From assembly GCA_028282385.1 (NCBI GenBank), contig JANQIB010000119.1, forward strand, positions 1 to 34,493: DNA of 34,493 nt. The letters run 5' to 3'. The position numbers were made by a program, and so were the translations under genes. Below, in pieces: positions 12,190-16,235 of the stretch (positions are counted from its first letter, which is position 1; each line of letters starts with the position of its first letter). The notes beneath the pieces are model-generated. The model saw nothing but the letters and a program-made list of their open reading frames with translations, ran no database searches and had not been told where the DNA came from. Origin of the DNA: Alphaproteobacteria bacterium. Its GTDB lineage: Bacteria > Pseudomonadota > Alphaproteobacteria > Micavibrionales > Micavibrionaceae.

Positions 12190-13455
12190 TCAGCGTAAAA
12201 ACGGGATTTTGTTTTTGAGAGTCTGAAGCAGGGAAGGACGCGTGTTGATGGCGGGAATAAAAGAAGAATCGCCAGTTTTCGAATCCCGGTTTTGGACCAG
12301 AAGGTTGCAGATCAGGTCGAATTTTTCTGCATTTTCTTCAATCACCATCTGGGCGAAATCTTTCATCTTTTTCAGATTGTCCGGGCTGCCGTCATCAATC
12401 TGCGTGCCTGGATAGTCTTCTACCGGCCCGGAGGTCAGGGATTTGTTGAAGACAAAAAGATTATCGCGCATTTCTGCCGTGAAGGATTCCAGAAGGGCGC
12501 TTTCCGGGGCATGGAACAGAATATTGATCAGCGGCAGGTCATTGACCGGGTCAACGACGCCCAGCGAGCCGAACTGGTTCCATTCTTCTTTGGTAACTGA
12601 CTTGTTGGTATAACCTGTGCCAAGGCAAATCATAATCACCTGGCGGTCCGGTTCGATATGCTGGCGCAGCGCGCCGAGATAACTAATGCAGGGGTTATCG
12701 AAGATCGACCCGTCAATGCCGGTATATTCATGTTTGGGCATGGTTTCATTCAGGCGGGCTTTAAAATGATGGCAGGGGAAATAGGTTGGCGCCGCCGTCG
12801 AGGCCATCACTGCATCGAATAAAGAAGCATCAGCAGGGAATTTATAGGTTGGAAGATGCCGGCCAAAACGAATATGTTTGAGCCAGATAGCATGGCCGCC
12901 TTCATCAACAAAATTATTCATTGTGTGAACCGGCGTTTCCTCGCTTTCTCCTTCTTCTTCCACAATGCGCAGTTGTTCGCCGTCAATATTATAGGTTGGA
13001 ATGACCAAAGAGCTCATCGTTTCGGACATCCGGGTATCGCCATATAAATCCCGCAGGCATTTAGCCAGATAGGCCGGATTATAATGGCCGTGGCGAAACA
13101 TCCGGTTAAGCTGGCCGATTTTCATGGTCCGGTTATTAAAGTCATGGATCAGGCCGCGTAATTCCCGGAACTTATCCTGCGGAAAAATATTGATCCCCTC
13201 GCGTTCATAAAATCGCACCATATGCCGGGCGCGGAATTTGGGCCGCCCTTTTTTTGTCGGGTGAGGAACGTTTAATGCCGCATTCAGGATGGAGCCGGTG
13301 GACGGGCCGCAAAATGCATCCACCATATTGGCCATTGGCAGGCCGGTGCGCCGTTCAATCTCAACCATGATATGGGCCGGGCTCAGGCCGCGCAGACCAC
13401 CGCCGTAATTGAACAGGACGATAAGGGGAGGTTTGTTGGAAAAAGATGCAGGCAT
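12190..13455 (-). CDS. Patatin-like phospholipase
   Basis: Patatin family serine lipases use a Ser-Asp dyad to release acyl chains from phospholipids. The 421-residue protein shows the oxyanion hole GGGLRG (18-23), the nucleophile elbow GPSTGS with S52, and the catalytic Asp D248 in GIDGSIFDNP (DGS rather than the common DGG or DGA). There is no signal peptide, so it is cytoplasmic or delivered by an unusual route; patatins are also known as secreted effectors and as nucleotide-signalled defence nucleases/lipases, but no cyclase partner is nearby. The start at 13455 has no clear ribosome binding site. It precedes the alpha/beta hydrolase gene on the same strand. Confidence 0.9.
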   Translation of the reverse strand: MPASFSNKPPLIVLFNYGGGLRGLSPAHIMVEIERRTGLPMANMVDAFCGPSTGSILNAALNVPHPTKKGRPKFRARHMVRFYEREGINIFPQDKFRELRGLIHDFNNRTMKIGQLNRMFRHGHYNPAYLAKCLRDLYGDTRMSETMSSLVIPTYNIDGEQLRIVEEEGESEETPVHTMNNFVDEGGHAIWLKHIRFGRHLPTYKFPADASLFDAVMASTAAPTYFPCHHFKARLNETMPKHEYTGIDGSIFDNPCISYLGALRQHIEPDRQVIMICLGTGYTNKSVTKEEWNQFGSLGVVDPVNDLPLINILFHAPESALLESFTAEMRDNLFVFNKSLTSGPVEDYPGTQIDDGSPDNLKKMKDFAQMVIEENAEKFDLICNLLVQNRDSKTGDSSFIPAINTRPSLLQTLKNKIPFLR

Positions 13456-13525: not shown

Positions 13526-13551
13526 AAAAAAACCGGGCCATTAAAGCCCGG
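13526..13551 (-). terminator. Intrinsic terminator of the small RNA / LysR transcript
   Basis: Minus-strand stem CCGGGC (13546-13551) with GCCCGG (13533-13538), loop of seven, followed by seven T (13526-13532). Confidence 0.85.
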
Positions 13552-13677
13552 CGAGTTGAACAGGGAGGTTTTTCGTCTGGGAGACGAAGGATTCTTCGAA
13601 AAGAACCCCAAACGCCCGAAGGCGTTAACGGTGTTTATAACCCTATTCGGACTCTGCCGTCCAGTAAAAAACCCTCA
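13526..13677 (-). ncRNA. Candidate structured small RNA with intrinsic terminator
   Basis: No protein is supported in the 316-bp gap 13456-13771. Read on the minus strand it gives consecutive hairpins: GGAC/GTCC (13649-13662); AACGCC-UUCG-GGCGUU (13611-13626); GGUUCUU-UUCG-AAGAAUCC (13589-13607); UUCGUCU-CCC-AGACGAA (13572-13588); then an unpaired stretch containing ACCUCCCU and a GC-rich terminator with seven U (13526-13551). AAAAACC and GGTTTTT (13667-13673, 13567-13573) could close the multibranch. Two C(UUCG)G tetraloops and perfect stems argue for a selected RNA. The CCUCC segment could pair with Shine-Dalgarno sites. I do not match it to a named family; it could instead be a 3' UTR of the LysR gene. 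Confidence 0.6.
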
Positions 13678-13683
13678 AAATTC

Positions 13684-13712
13684 ATGATATATATGCATTC
13701 CTGGCATACCAA
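13684..13712 (-). promoter_or_regulatory. Candidate promoter of the small RNA
   Basis: On the minus strand TTGGTA (13707-13712), a 17-bp spacer and TATCAT (13684-13689) resemble a sigma-70 promoter, placing the transcript start near 13677, just before the first hairpin. Confidence 0.5.
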
Positions 13713-13771: not shown

Positions 13772-14662
13772 TCAAAAATTTGTTTCCTGAATGGTCTTAA
13801 GCAGGAAGTCGCGGAAGATTGCCAGGCGCTTGGAATGTTTACGTTCTTCGGGATAAACAAAGTACATATCCACAGGCTGGCGCTCCAGGTCCGGAAGGAC
13901 GGCTTTAATTTTTTGTGAATCCTGCACCAGATAATCCGGCAGGGCAGCAAGACCAACACCGGCGCGCACAGCTTCATAAATGCCATAGAGTGAATTCATC
14001 ATAACCAGGTTCGGGTTGCTGTCCATATCCGCACCGGCGACGCGGAACAGCCAGTTCGGATCTGAAAAGGGCGGAGCGACTGTTTCCGGATAACCGATCA
14101 GGGTGTGCTTTTGCAGGTCTTTGACTTTTTCCGGGGTGCCGTGTTTTTTCAGATAATCTTCTGAGGCGCAGATATGAAATCGGATGCTGGTTAAATGGCG
14201 CTGGATCAGTTCAGGTTGTTCGGGTTTGTACAGGCGGATTGCCGCATCAGCCTCACGCATCGACAGGTTTAAAATCTTGTCATCAAGAAGCATGGTGAGC
14301 TGAATATCCGGATGTTCATCTTTGAGCGCGGCCAAGCGTGGAGCCAGCCAGGTTGACCCGATAAAAGGCGCCGCGGTAATCCGCAGCGGCCCGGAGGCGA
14401 GCTGGCGGGAGTCGTTAATCTGCCCCTCAATCATGCTGAGCTTGGCAAAAATATCCCGCGCCGCATTATGCAGGATTTCCCCCTCTTCGGTGAGAATGAG
14501 CCCGCGTGCATGGCGATGAAACAAGGTGACACCAATACTTTCTTCAAGCGTACTGATTTGCCGGGAGACAGCTGATTGGCTGAGACCAAGTGTTTCCCCG
14601 GCATGGGTAAAGCTTCCGGCTTCAACAACACAATGAAAAATACGAAGCTTGTCCCAGTCCAT
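13772..14662 (-). CDS. LysR-family transcriptional regulator
   Basis: The 296-residue protein has the N-terminal winged helix-turn-helix (about 2-62; FTHAGETLGLSQSAVSRQISTLE) and a periplasmic-binding-protein-like effector domain (about 90-290) of normal length. The HTH reading MDWDKLRIFHCVVEAGSFTHA is typical of the alphaproteobacterial regulators found next to trxB. The start ATG overlaps the stop of the upstream secreted-protein gene (TAATG), so it is the last gene of the ELM1-trxB-secreted protein-lysR run. LysR proteins usually act on a divergent gene; here there is none, so its target and effector are unknown. Confidence 0.93.
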   Translation of the reverse strand: MDWDKLRIFHCVVEAGSFTHAGETLGLSQSAVSRQISTLEESIGVTLFHRHARGLILTEEGEILHNAARDIFAKLSMIEGQINDSRQLASGPLRITAAPFIGSTWLAPRLAALKDEHPDIQLTMLLDDKILNLSMREADAAIRLYKPEQPELIQRHLTSIRFHICASEDYLKKHGTPEKVKDLQKHTLIGYPETVAPPFSDPNWLFRVAGADMDSNPNLVMMNSLYGIYEAVRAGVGLAALPDYLVQDSQKIKAVLPDLERQPVDMYFVYPEERKHSKRLAIFRDFLLKTIQETNF

Positions 14663-15252
14663 TATTGTGCTTTCTCTGTTTCTTCATATTGATCACAGTT
14701 TTCAGCGCCGTCCAGAAGACTCATGCATTTGATTTTGTTAATGCTAACTTGCTCTTTAGCTTTTCCAGCAAGAGGAAATTCAGTGTGGCTGAGGGAACCG
14801 CCTGCGCCGCAATATCTGCGGTTACAGGTCATGCTGTCCTGCGCTTTTAAATGAATATTTTTATCATCCATAAAAATATCGAGTTCACACACTTTTTCAC
14901 TTTTAGATCCTGAAGCATCGCTATATTGCCAGCCTTCTTCACTCTTCTCGGCCTTGCCTCCTATCGTGCAGCTATATCCGCTGGAGAAAAAGAGCAGGGC
15001 AGAAAAATACAAAGACCCATCAGAATTTTGATAAAGCGCTAACCTGTCGGAGGTGTCATATTCTGCAACGCATATATCTCCTGCCAGAATATAGGGAGCG
15101 TCGCAGCTTTCCCCTTCTTCAAGATGGGCTGGGGAGGTGATTTTGTGTATTCTTTCATAGATGCCGTTTATCTCTTCAGGGGCGTTTGACATTGCCGGAA
15201 CGGATGCCGGTATGAAAAAGAGCAGGGTTGATAAAACGGCAAAAAATTTCAT
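14662..15252 (-). CDS. Secreted cysteine-rich hypothetical protein
   Basis: I do not recognise this 196-residue protein. MKFFAVLSTLLFFIPASVPAMS is a clear signal peptide. The mature part has eight cysteines and short aromatic-rich strands, consistent with a small disulfide-bonded periplasmic or surface domain. Its ATG overlaps the trxB stop by four bases (ATGA) and its stop overlaps the lysR start, so it is embedded in a tightly coupled operon. TrxB acts in the cytoplasm, so the link to disulfide chemistry is only suggestive. Confidence 0.8.
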   Translation of the reverse strand: MKFFAVLSTLLFFIPASVPAMSNAPEEINGIYERIHKITSPAHLEEGESCDAPYILAGDICVAEYDTSDRLALYQNSDGSLYFSALLFFSSGYSCTIGGKAEKSEEGWQYSDASGSKSEKVCELDIFMDDKNIHLKAQDSMTCNRRYCGAGGSLSHTEFPLAGKAKEQVSINKIKCMSLLDGAENCDQYEETEKAQ

Positions 15253-16235
15253 TCAGCGGCCTCTTGTTGTCCGTCATTATCTTCCAATTCAGCGATAAAT
15301 TTATCTGCTTCCAGGGCCGCCATGCAGCCCATGCCAGCAGCGGTGACGGCCTGTCGGTAGATTTTATCTTTCACATCACCGGCGGCGTAAACACCGGGCA
15401 CAGAGGTTGCTGTGGAATCCGGTGCGGTCAGGATATAACCTTCTTTATCCATATCAAGCTTATCCTGAAAAAGCGCTGTGGCCGGGTCATGGCCGATCGC
15501 CACAAACATCCCAGCTACATCAATGGTGCTTTCTTCATTTGTTTTGACATTTTTCAGGCGCAGGCCGGTAACGCCCGGCGCATCTCCCTGGCCGACTTCA
15601 ATGCCGAGCACTTCTTCAACAACGCTATCCCAGATGACATCAATTTTTGGATGTTTAAGTAATCGGCCTTGCGCGATTTTTTCCGCGCGCAGTTCATCAC
15701 GCCGGTGAATAAGAGTTACTTTTTCACACATATTGGCAAGAAAGAGCGCCTCTTCGACGGCTGAATTACCGCCGCCGACCACGGCAACATGCTTGCCACG
15801 GAAGAAAAACCCGTCACAGGTTGCGCAAGCCGAGACGCCCATATTCATAAATTTTTCTTCACTGGGCAGGCCAAGCCAGCGGGCCTTGGCGCCCGTGGAG
15901 ATAATAATCGTATCAGCCGTATAGATTGCGCCGCCATCGCCTTTGGCGACAAGGGGACGTTTGGTAAAATCAACCTCGGTAATCAGGTCGTGAATCGTTT
16001 TTGTGCCGACATGTTCGGCCTGGGCTTTCATTTGTTCCATCAGCCATGGTCCCTGAATCACATCGGCAAAGCCGGGATAGTTTTCAACATCTGTCGTAAT
16101 GGTCAGCTGGCCGCCGGGCTGCAGCCCTAAAACCTGGACAGGTTCCAGACCTGCACGCGCGGCGTAAATTGCTGCTGTGTATCCGGCCGGGCCGGAACCG
16201 ATAATAAGAACCTTGGTATGCAAATTTTCGGACAT
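15249..16235 (-). CDS. trxB: Thioredoxin reductase
   Basis: The flavoenzyme passes electrons from NADPH to thioredoxin. The 328-residue protein has the FAD-binding GSGPAG (13-18), the redox-active CATC (C137 and C140) followed by DGFF, the NADPH-binding GGGNSA (154-159), and the late CATC-partner region ending with the FAD motif VYAAGDVKD. Length and order match bacterial low-molecular-weight TrxB. An AAGGTGAT ribosome binding site precedes the ATG. It lies 52 bp downstream of the ELM1-like gene and is translationally coupled to the secreted protein gene. Confidence 0.97.
   Translation of the reverse strand: MSENLHTKVLIIGSGPAGYTAAIYAARAGLEPVQVLGLQPGGQLTITTDVENYPGFADVIQGPWLMEQMKAQAEHVGTKTIHDLITEVDFTKRPLVAKGDGGAIYTADTIIISTGAKARWLGLPSEEKFMNMGVSACATCDGFFFRGKHVAVVGGGNSAVEEALFLANMCEKVTLIHRRDELRAEKIAQGRLLKHPKIDVIWDSVVEEVLGIEVGQGDAPGVTGLRLKNVKTNEESTIDVAGMFVAIGHDPATALFQDKLDMDKEGYILTAPDSTATSVPGVYAAGDVKDKIYRQAVTAAGMGCMAALEADKFIAELEDNDGQQEAAE

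Follow-up and report, generated by a model that had tools for sequence, protein, structure and literature searches.

AbcR small RNAs and the LysR-type regulator LsrB/VtlR have been studied as a system of rhizobia and Brucella that adjusts nutrient uptake and interaction with the host, LsrB/VtlR being the activator of AbcR1 in Sinorhizobium and Agrobacterium. Concerning S. meliloti, it was demonstrated experimentally that LsrB activates abcR1 through a promoter box (PMC8844928), the VtlR/LsrB element being situated at -61 to -49 of abcR1 (PMC7486931, PMC8844928), while mutational analysis established that AbcR1/2 repress transporter mRNAs by means of two anti-Shine-Dalgarno motifs (PMC8844928). 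In rhizobia trxB precedes lsrB/vtlR and abcR is located downstream (PMC7486931).

In the current study, a 34,493-nucleotide stretch of a Micavibrionaceae genome (contig JANQIB010000119.1 of assembly GCA_028282385.1; hereafter the window) was found by sequence comparison and folding to hold a conserved small RNA, predicted to be approximately 104 nt in length and to consist of three hairpins, the open stretch ACCUCCCUGUUCAACU and a terminator. The locus lies on the minus strand, in the gap between a lysR gene (13772-14662) and a patatin gene (12190-13455). We consider it probable that this is an independently transcribed, trans-acting anti-Shine-Dalgarno RNA, activated by LsrB/VtlR and similar to AbcR. 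The features of the locus are as follows.

15249-16235, minus strand: trxB, thioredoxin reductase, which is conserved upstream of lsrB/vtlR (NCBIfam TIGR01292, 400.8 bits, cut-off 343)
13772-14662, minus strand: lysR, LsrB/VtlR orthologue by structure-sequence comparison and neighbourhood, proposed activator of the RNA
13692-13708, minus strand: putative LysR-type (LsrB/VtlR-like) binding box TATGCCAGGAATGCATA, a T-N11-A dyad TATGC-N7-GCATA, from conservation and the published consensus (PMC7486931, PMC8844928)
13658-13663, minus strand: putative -35 TGGACG, its position conserved upstream of the conserved -10
13634-13639, minus strand: putative -10 TATAAA, its spacing placing the start at about 13629 (+/- 3)
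13526-13629, minus strand: small RNA of about 104 nt, its ends placed from promoter and terminator
13611-13626, minus strand: hairpin 1 with a cUUCGg loop, kept as a hairpin in relatives despite nearly complete sequence turnover
13588-13609, minus strand: hairpin 2 with a UUCG loop and, here, a U-A closing pair, with compensatory changes among relatives
13573-13587, minus strand: hairpin 3 CGUCUCCCAGACG, its tip being CUCCCA, from fold and alignment
13554-13569, minus strand: the open, invariant 16-nt ACCUCCCUGUUCAACU, a putative anti-Shine-Dalgarno seed, from conservation and exposure
13526-13552, minus strand: intrinsic terminator, hairpin 13552-13532 plus U-tail, from fold and covariation

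Fold and conservation of the small RNA

Folding of the 104-nt RNA yielded a minimum free energy of -39.4 kcal/mol compared to -26.9 +/- 3.1 kcal/mol for shuffled sequences (z = -4.1), none of the 200 shuffles equalling its stability, and the minimum free energy structure was identical to the centroid structure. The entire 187-nt stretch from 13526 to 13712, on which a first-pass annotation had reported, also outperformed its shuffles, albeit to a lesser extent (z = -3.1). That annotation had described, on the minus strand between lysR and the patatin gene, tidy hairpins and a strong terminator together with an unpaired CCUCCCU, all of which are confirmed by the fold, with the unpaired run extending from 13572 to 13553 between hairpin 3 and the terminator. 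Its mention of two UUCG tetraloops holds in that both loops read UUCG in the window, although the canonical cUUCGg form is present in hairpin 1 only and the loops vary across the order. The unpaired probability of CCUCCCUGUU was 0.94 in the window RNA and averaged 0.85 across 69 relatives, as against 0.40 for all 10-mers.

Plain blastn analysis revealed the RNA to be conserved in 38 of 58 relatives, and a pattern scan of named genomes produced matches in Micavibrio and related Micavibrionales records, as well as a handful in unrelated genomes, for example Streptomyces, that are attributed to chance. The sequence ACCTCCCTGTTCAAC was present in all 30 loci retrieved by blastn, where no seed pattern was imposed; loci added later by pattern scan carry no independent weight for the invariance of the seed because the scan itself demanded it. 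In the stems of hairpin 3 and the terminator 93.2% of alignment cells were paired, and both sides had changed in 32 cells compared to 6.4 in shuffles, while RNAalifold detected compensatory changes in hairpin 2; the stem compensation that the annotation had proposed looking for is therefore present in all three elements, and neither a lack of conservation nor broken hairpins, which it had named as grounds for doubt, was encountered. Three hairpins were predicted 5' of the seed in 49 of the 69 RNAs and two in 19. The CCUCC-bearing stretch proved to be the least variable and most exposed part of an RNA that is conserved beyond the order and whose stems compensate, thereby substantiating the earlier proposal that this is a small RNA exposing an anti-Shine-Dalgarno segment. 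Some relatives (for example L027 and L124) lack the CUCCCA of hairpin 3, so that the open stretch alone looks essential.

The possibility that the locus encodes a small protein was dropped since hairpin lengths vary by non-multiples of three and every position of the open stretch is invariant, in agreement with the first reading, which had seen no supported protein here.

A second copy type was observed at four other Micavibrionales loci (L045, L054, L089 and L109), where an AT-rich leader is combined with ATACCTCCCTGTTCAACT and a terminator, and the ACGTCTCCCAGACGT hairpin is absent.

Promoter, LysR box and neighbouring genes

In the aligned upstream regions of relatives, a TATA-type -10 is nearly fixed in place directly before hairpin 1, and TGGACG-like -35 boxes are found in many of them. 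The promoter pair TTGGTA/TATCAT (13712-13684) advanced by the first-pass annotation was rejected because its letters overlap the conserved dyad of the LysR box (13708-13692) and because the conserved -10 lies downstream, the conserved -35/-10 pair being situated some 50 bp further on; the predicted transcript is therefore approximately 104 nt rather than the suggested 150 nt or so.

The 3' side of the box in the window, GCATATATATCAT, fits GCAT-N3-TG-N3-T with one mismatch (TA for TG), and the consensus of this side across 57 relatives, GCATAnCTGnnAT, is the published VtlR/LsrB element GCAT-N3-TG-N3-T. In register, the element was exact in 15 of the 57 boxes and matched with at most one mismatch in 45, while approximately 0.9% of shuffled 150-nt regions contained an exact copy anywhere. 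The presence of the box depends on that of the regulator: among 30 Micavibrionales loci with whole genomes, LysR absence being called at E <= 1e-40, the box was present in all 24 genomes with a LysR orthologue (score of at least 8 of 10) and absent from all six without (score 6 in each), an association with a Fisher p of 1.7e-6 that carries no correction for phylogeny, the six LysR-less genomes representing five genera and three families. At L022 and L027 the box is present and lysR is found in the genome on another contig. In three of the six LysR-less promoters, TGGACG is replaced by TTGACG or TTGACC, and the joint loss of box and LysR provides a natural experiment in how the promoter of a small RNA changes once its activator disappears. 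Across the class, with a threshold of 7 matching letters out of 8, the box was recovered at 42 of the 44 loci adjacent to lysR; among the 32 other copies, some of which lie on stretches too short to include lysR or farther off from it, 15 had the box. No recognisable box was found in four lysR-adjacent relatives (L038, L042, L062 and L084).

Seven loci outside Micavibrionales (L130, L131, L135, L138, L140, L147 and L149) have an additional inverted repeat, TGTTGCGTYGCAACA, downstream of the LysR box and ahead of the first hairpins.

Concerning the regulator itself, the best solved relative of the window LysR is A. tumefaciens LsrB (9HH1) at 261 bits, the next best scoring 131, and trxB lies upstream; the gene order trxB-lysR-sRNA is also found in relatives. 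The first-pass annotation had given the lysR-patatin context and had missed both the LsrB/VtlR identity of this lysR and its binding box. The redox cysteines C144 and C273 of Agrobacterium LsrB are conserved among rhizobial and Brucella LsrB proteins (PMC11975290). Ala and Val occupy the aligned positions in the window LysR, and since the pair is missing this orthologue may sense a signal different from that of Agrobacterium LsrB.

The relation of the RNA to its neighbours raises two further explanations. It is unlikely that the RNA represents the 3' UTR of the lysR transcript, freed by RNase E cleavage in the manner of SorX from ompR-1 and devoid of a promoter of its own: in most genomes it follows lysR on the same strand, which would be in keeping with such an origin, as would the fact that SorX, the closest Rfam family, arises in that way (PMC8625941), but the -10 is nearly fixed before hairpin 1 with the LysR box further upstream, the RNA is kept where lysR is missing, right behind trxB or elsewhere (L016, L029, L057, L077 and L118), and it is also present at the two loci whose lysR is on another contig. 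A role for the RNA in cis, as leader or attenuator of the patatin gene that follows it, is very improbable, since a strong terminator separates the two; while most Micavibrionaceae have patatin downstream on the same strand, at a distance of approximately 100-240 nt, no patatin match follows the RNA in other relatives and outside the order, where it is still located behind lysR (L015, L018, L020, L061 and L087). An independently transcribed RNA under LysR control thus continues to be the preferred reading.

The patatin-like phospholipase gene (12190-13455, minus strand), which adjoins the RNA in most Micavibrionaceae, has as its top NCBIfam model the CBASS lipase, at 100 bits and under the cut-off of 200. 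Between trxB and lysR, a gene at 14662-15252 (minus strand) encodes a 196-aa protein that matched no Pfam or NCBIfam family and is limited, among the compared loci, to the genus of the window and one other genus.

Distribution in the class and relation to AbcR, SorX and mmgR

A covariance and Rfam search had been recommended in the first-pass annotation, and its two halves differed in outcome. The covariance model R1, built on the 3' core and searched in 385 genomes sampled evenly from the class Alphaproteobacteria, matched 173 of them at E <= 0.05, a threshold at which approximately 19 of 385 would be expected by chance, and nearly all matches listed were below 1e-6; in a sample of the phylum, all 11 matches at E <= 1e-4 were Alphaproteobacteria. 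Among the matches listed, 83 of the 106 genomes that contain both had the RNA on the lysR strand, 122-506 nt downstream of the gene, the median distance being 212 nt, and 15 further copies, likewise all on the same strand, lay 0.6-5.6 kb downstream. The Tistrella mobilis megaplasmid NC_017958.1 is a named match. Outside Micavibrionales the seed mostly reads AAGCCUCCCUGUU and hairpin 2 often GGGUCCUUCGGGAUCC. Rfam, on the other hand, returned nothing for the window RNA at the gathering threshold, and no family exceeded its threshold for the RNA at 20 class-wide loci. Judged by these matches, the RNA recurs over much of the class and has no Rfam family of its own. A literature search, in a collection with few subscription journals, retrieved nothing relevant on the seed string, on Micavibrio small RNAs or on an AbcR relative outside rhizobia.

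AbcR1 and AbcR2 (alpha-r15, RF02345; Sinorhizobium, Agrobacterium and Brucella) resemble the window RNA in several respects, being also located behind trxB-lsrB/vtlR (in Agrobacterium and Sinorhizobium), carrying an LsrB box at a comparable distance within the promoter, and displaying two C-rich motifs, CUCCCA in a hairpin loop (M1 in Brucella) and a single-stranded one, ahead of a terminator. CUCCCA is present in hairpin 3 of the window RNA and not in all relatives, whereas the single-stranded motif differs, reading ACCUCCCUGUUCAAC here compared to GUUCCCCUC in AbcR (GUUCCC/UUCCCCUC). The window RNA furthermore has two extra 5' hairpins, usually occurs as one copy and is spread far more widely. 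The window gave no hit to the Rfam ar15 model at E values up to 5, nor did the model exceed its cut-off in any of 142, then 385, class genomes (0/385); of three weak matches, one was mmgR and two were far under threshold, and all three were set aside.

SorX (RF02784, Rhodobacter) obtained the top Rfam score, with 31.3 bits for the window and 38.5 bits for L131, both below the gathering threshold of 46.6, and has in common with the window RNA ACCUCCCUGUU followed by a terminator. It differs, however, in being cut from the 3' UTR of ompR-1, in not lying beside lsrB, where the gene upstream of the window RNA is lysR, and in having no CUCCCA hairpin. The mmgR/suhB family (RF00519, in the Rfam clan of ar15) shares an open CUCCCU before the terminator hairpin, but had no window match up to E = 5 and reached 26.3 bits at L131 where 41 are required.

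Tandem copies, two or three in number, were found at lsrB in three inspected genomes of one family (L191:1230-1840, L192:1290-1945 and L194:1440-1593), in which a first loop UUUUCCUCCCAG or CUUCCUCCCAG, resembling the ar15 consensus, is joined to the CCUCCCUGUUAGACUU-terminator module of the window RNA. Common descent with AbcR is favoured by these hybrid copies and by the locus, regulator box and CUCCCA motif that the two have in common, and on this sequence evidence it is plausible. The RNA was nevertheless not filed as an AbcR, because the ar15 model misses it and because AbcR entered the comparison solely through the Rfam ar15 model and consensus and published descriptions. We regard it as an even question whether trxB, lysR and the small RNA constitute an ancient class-wide module with LsrB/VtlR, of which AbcR of rhizobia and Brucella would be a derived, duplicated branch linked to it by the tandem hybrid copies. 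If the module is indeed class-wide, and thus includes the small-genome relatives of predatory Micavibrio, it would represent a core regulatory circuit whose original job was not symbiosis or virulence; it would in that case be open to testing in free-living hosts, and a large family now missing from Rfam could be added.

Proposed mode of action and candidate targets

By analogy with AbcR, the window RNA is likely to work in the same manner. The LsrB/VtlR-type LysR encoded by the upstream gene would bind TATGC-N7-GCATA some 60-80 bp ahead of the transcription start and recruit RNA polymerase to a promoter that combines a weak -35 (TGGACG) with a good -10 (TATAAA). Hfq, whose gene is present in 53 of 58 relatives including the genome of the window, probably holds the 104-nt RNA at its U-tail, leaving two C-rich anti-Shine-Dalgarno motifs on display, one being the CUCCCA that caps hairpin 3 and the other the open ACCUCCCUGUUCAACU; for AbcR, the silencing of ABC-transporter mRNAs depends on Hfq. 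Pairing with the ribosome-binding sites of several mRNAs would then reduce their translation, as AbcR1 does in rhizobia; the most likely role of the open seed, on this analogy, is to cover such sites.

Target searches identified no conserved regulon and no excess of pairing. Among 1302 genes crudely predicted in a genome of the same genus, 63% of which was covered, 81 had duplex energies below -14 kcal/mol compared to 113 +/- 32 for flank-shuffled seeds, and long perfect complementarity to the seed occurred at 6 sites in 35 genomes versus 2 in the control. This lack of a genome-wide signal, and the fact that 16 invariant bases exceed what an anti-Shine-Dalgarno seed needs, could be accommodated if the RNA acted mainly by binding a protein or as an RNA sponge through its C-rich invariant stretch. 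We consider this quite unlikely, as similar C-rich motifs in AbcR1/2 and NfeR1, likewise alphaproteobacterial RNAs, pair with mRNA, with proof by mutation for AbcR1/2 (PMC8844928), and pairing with ribosome-binding sites is the mode of action we prefer.

The top single candidate target encodes a 149-aa protein of unknown family, in which GAACAGGAGGU is complementary to the seed over the ribosome-binding site. The site is strong in the genome of the window and in G001 and fades elsewhere, and the candidate corresponds to L297 and L298, orthologues of L261:4714-5160:-, in both genomes of the genus.
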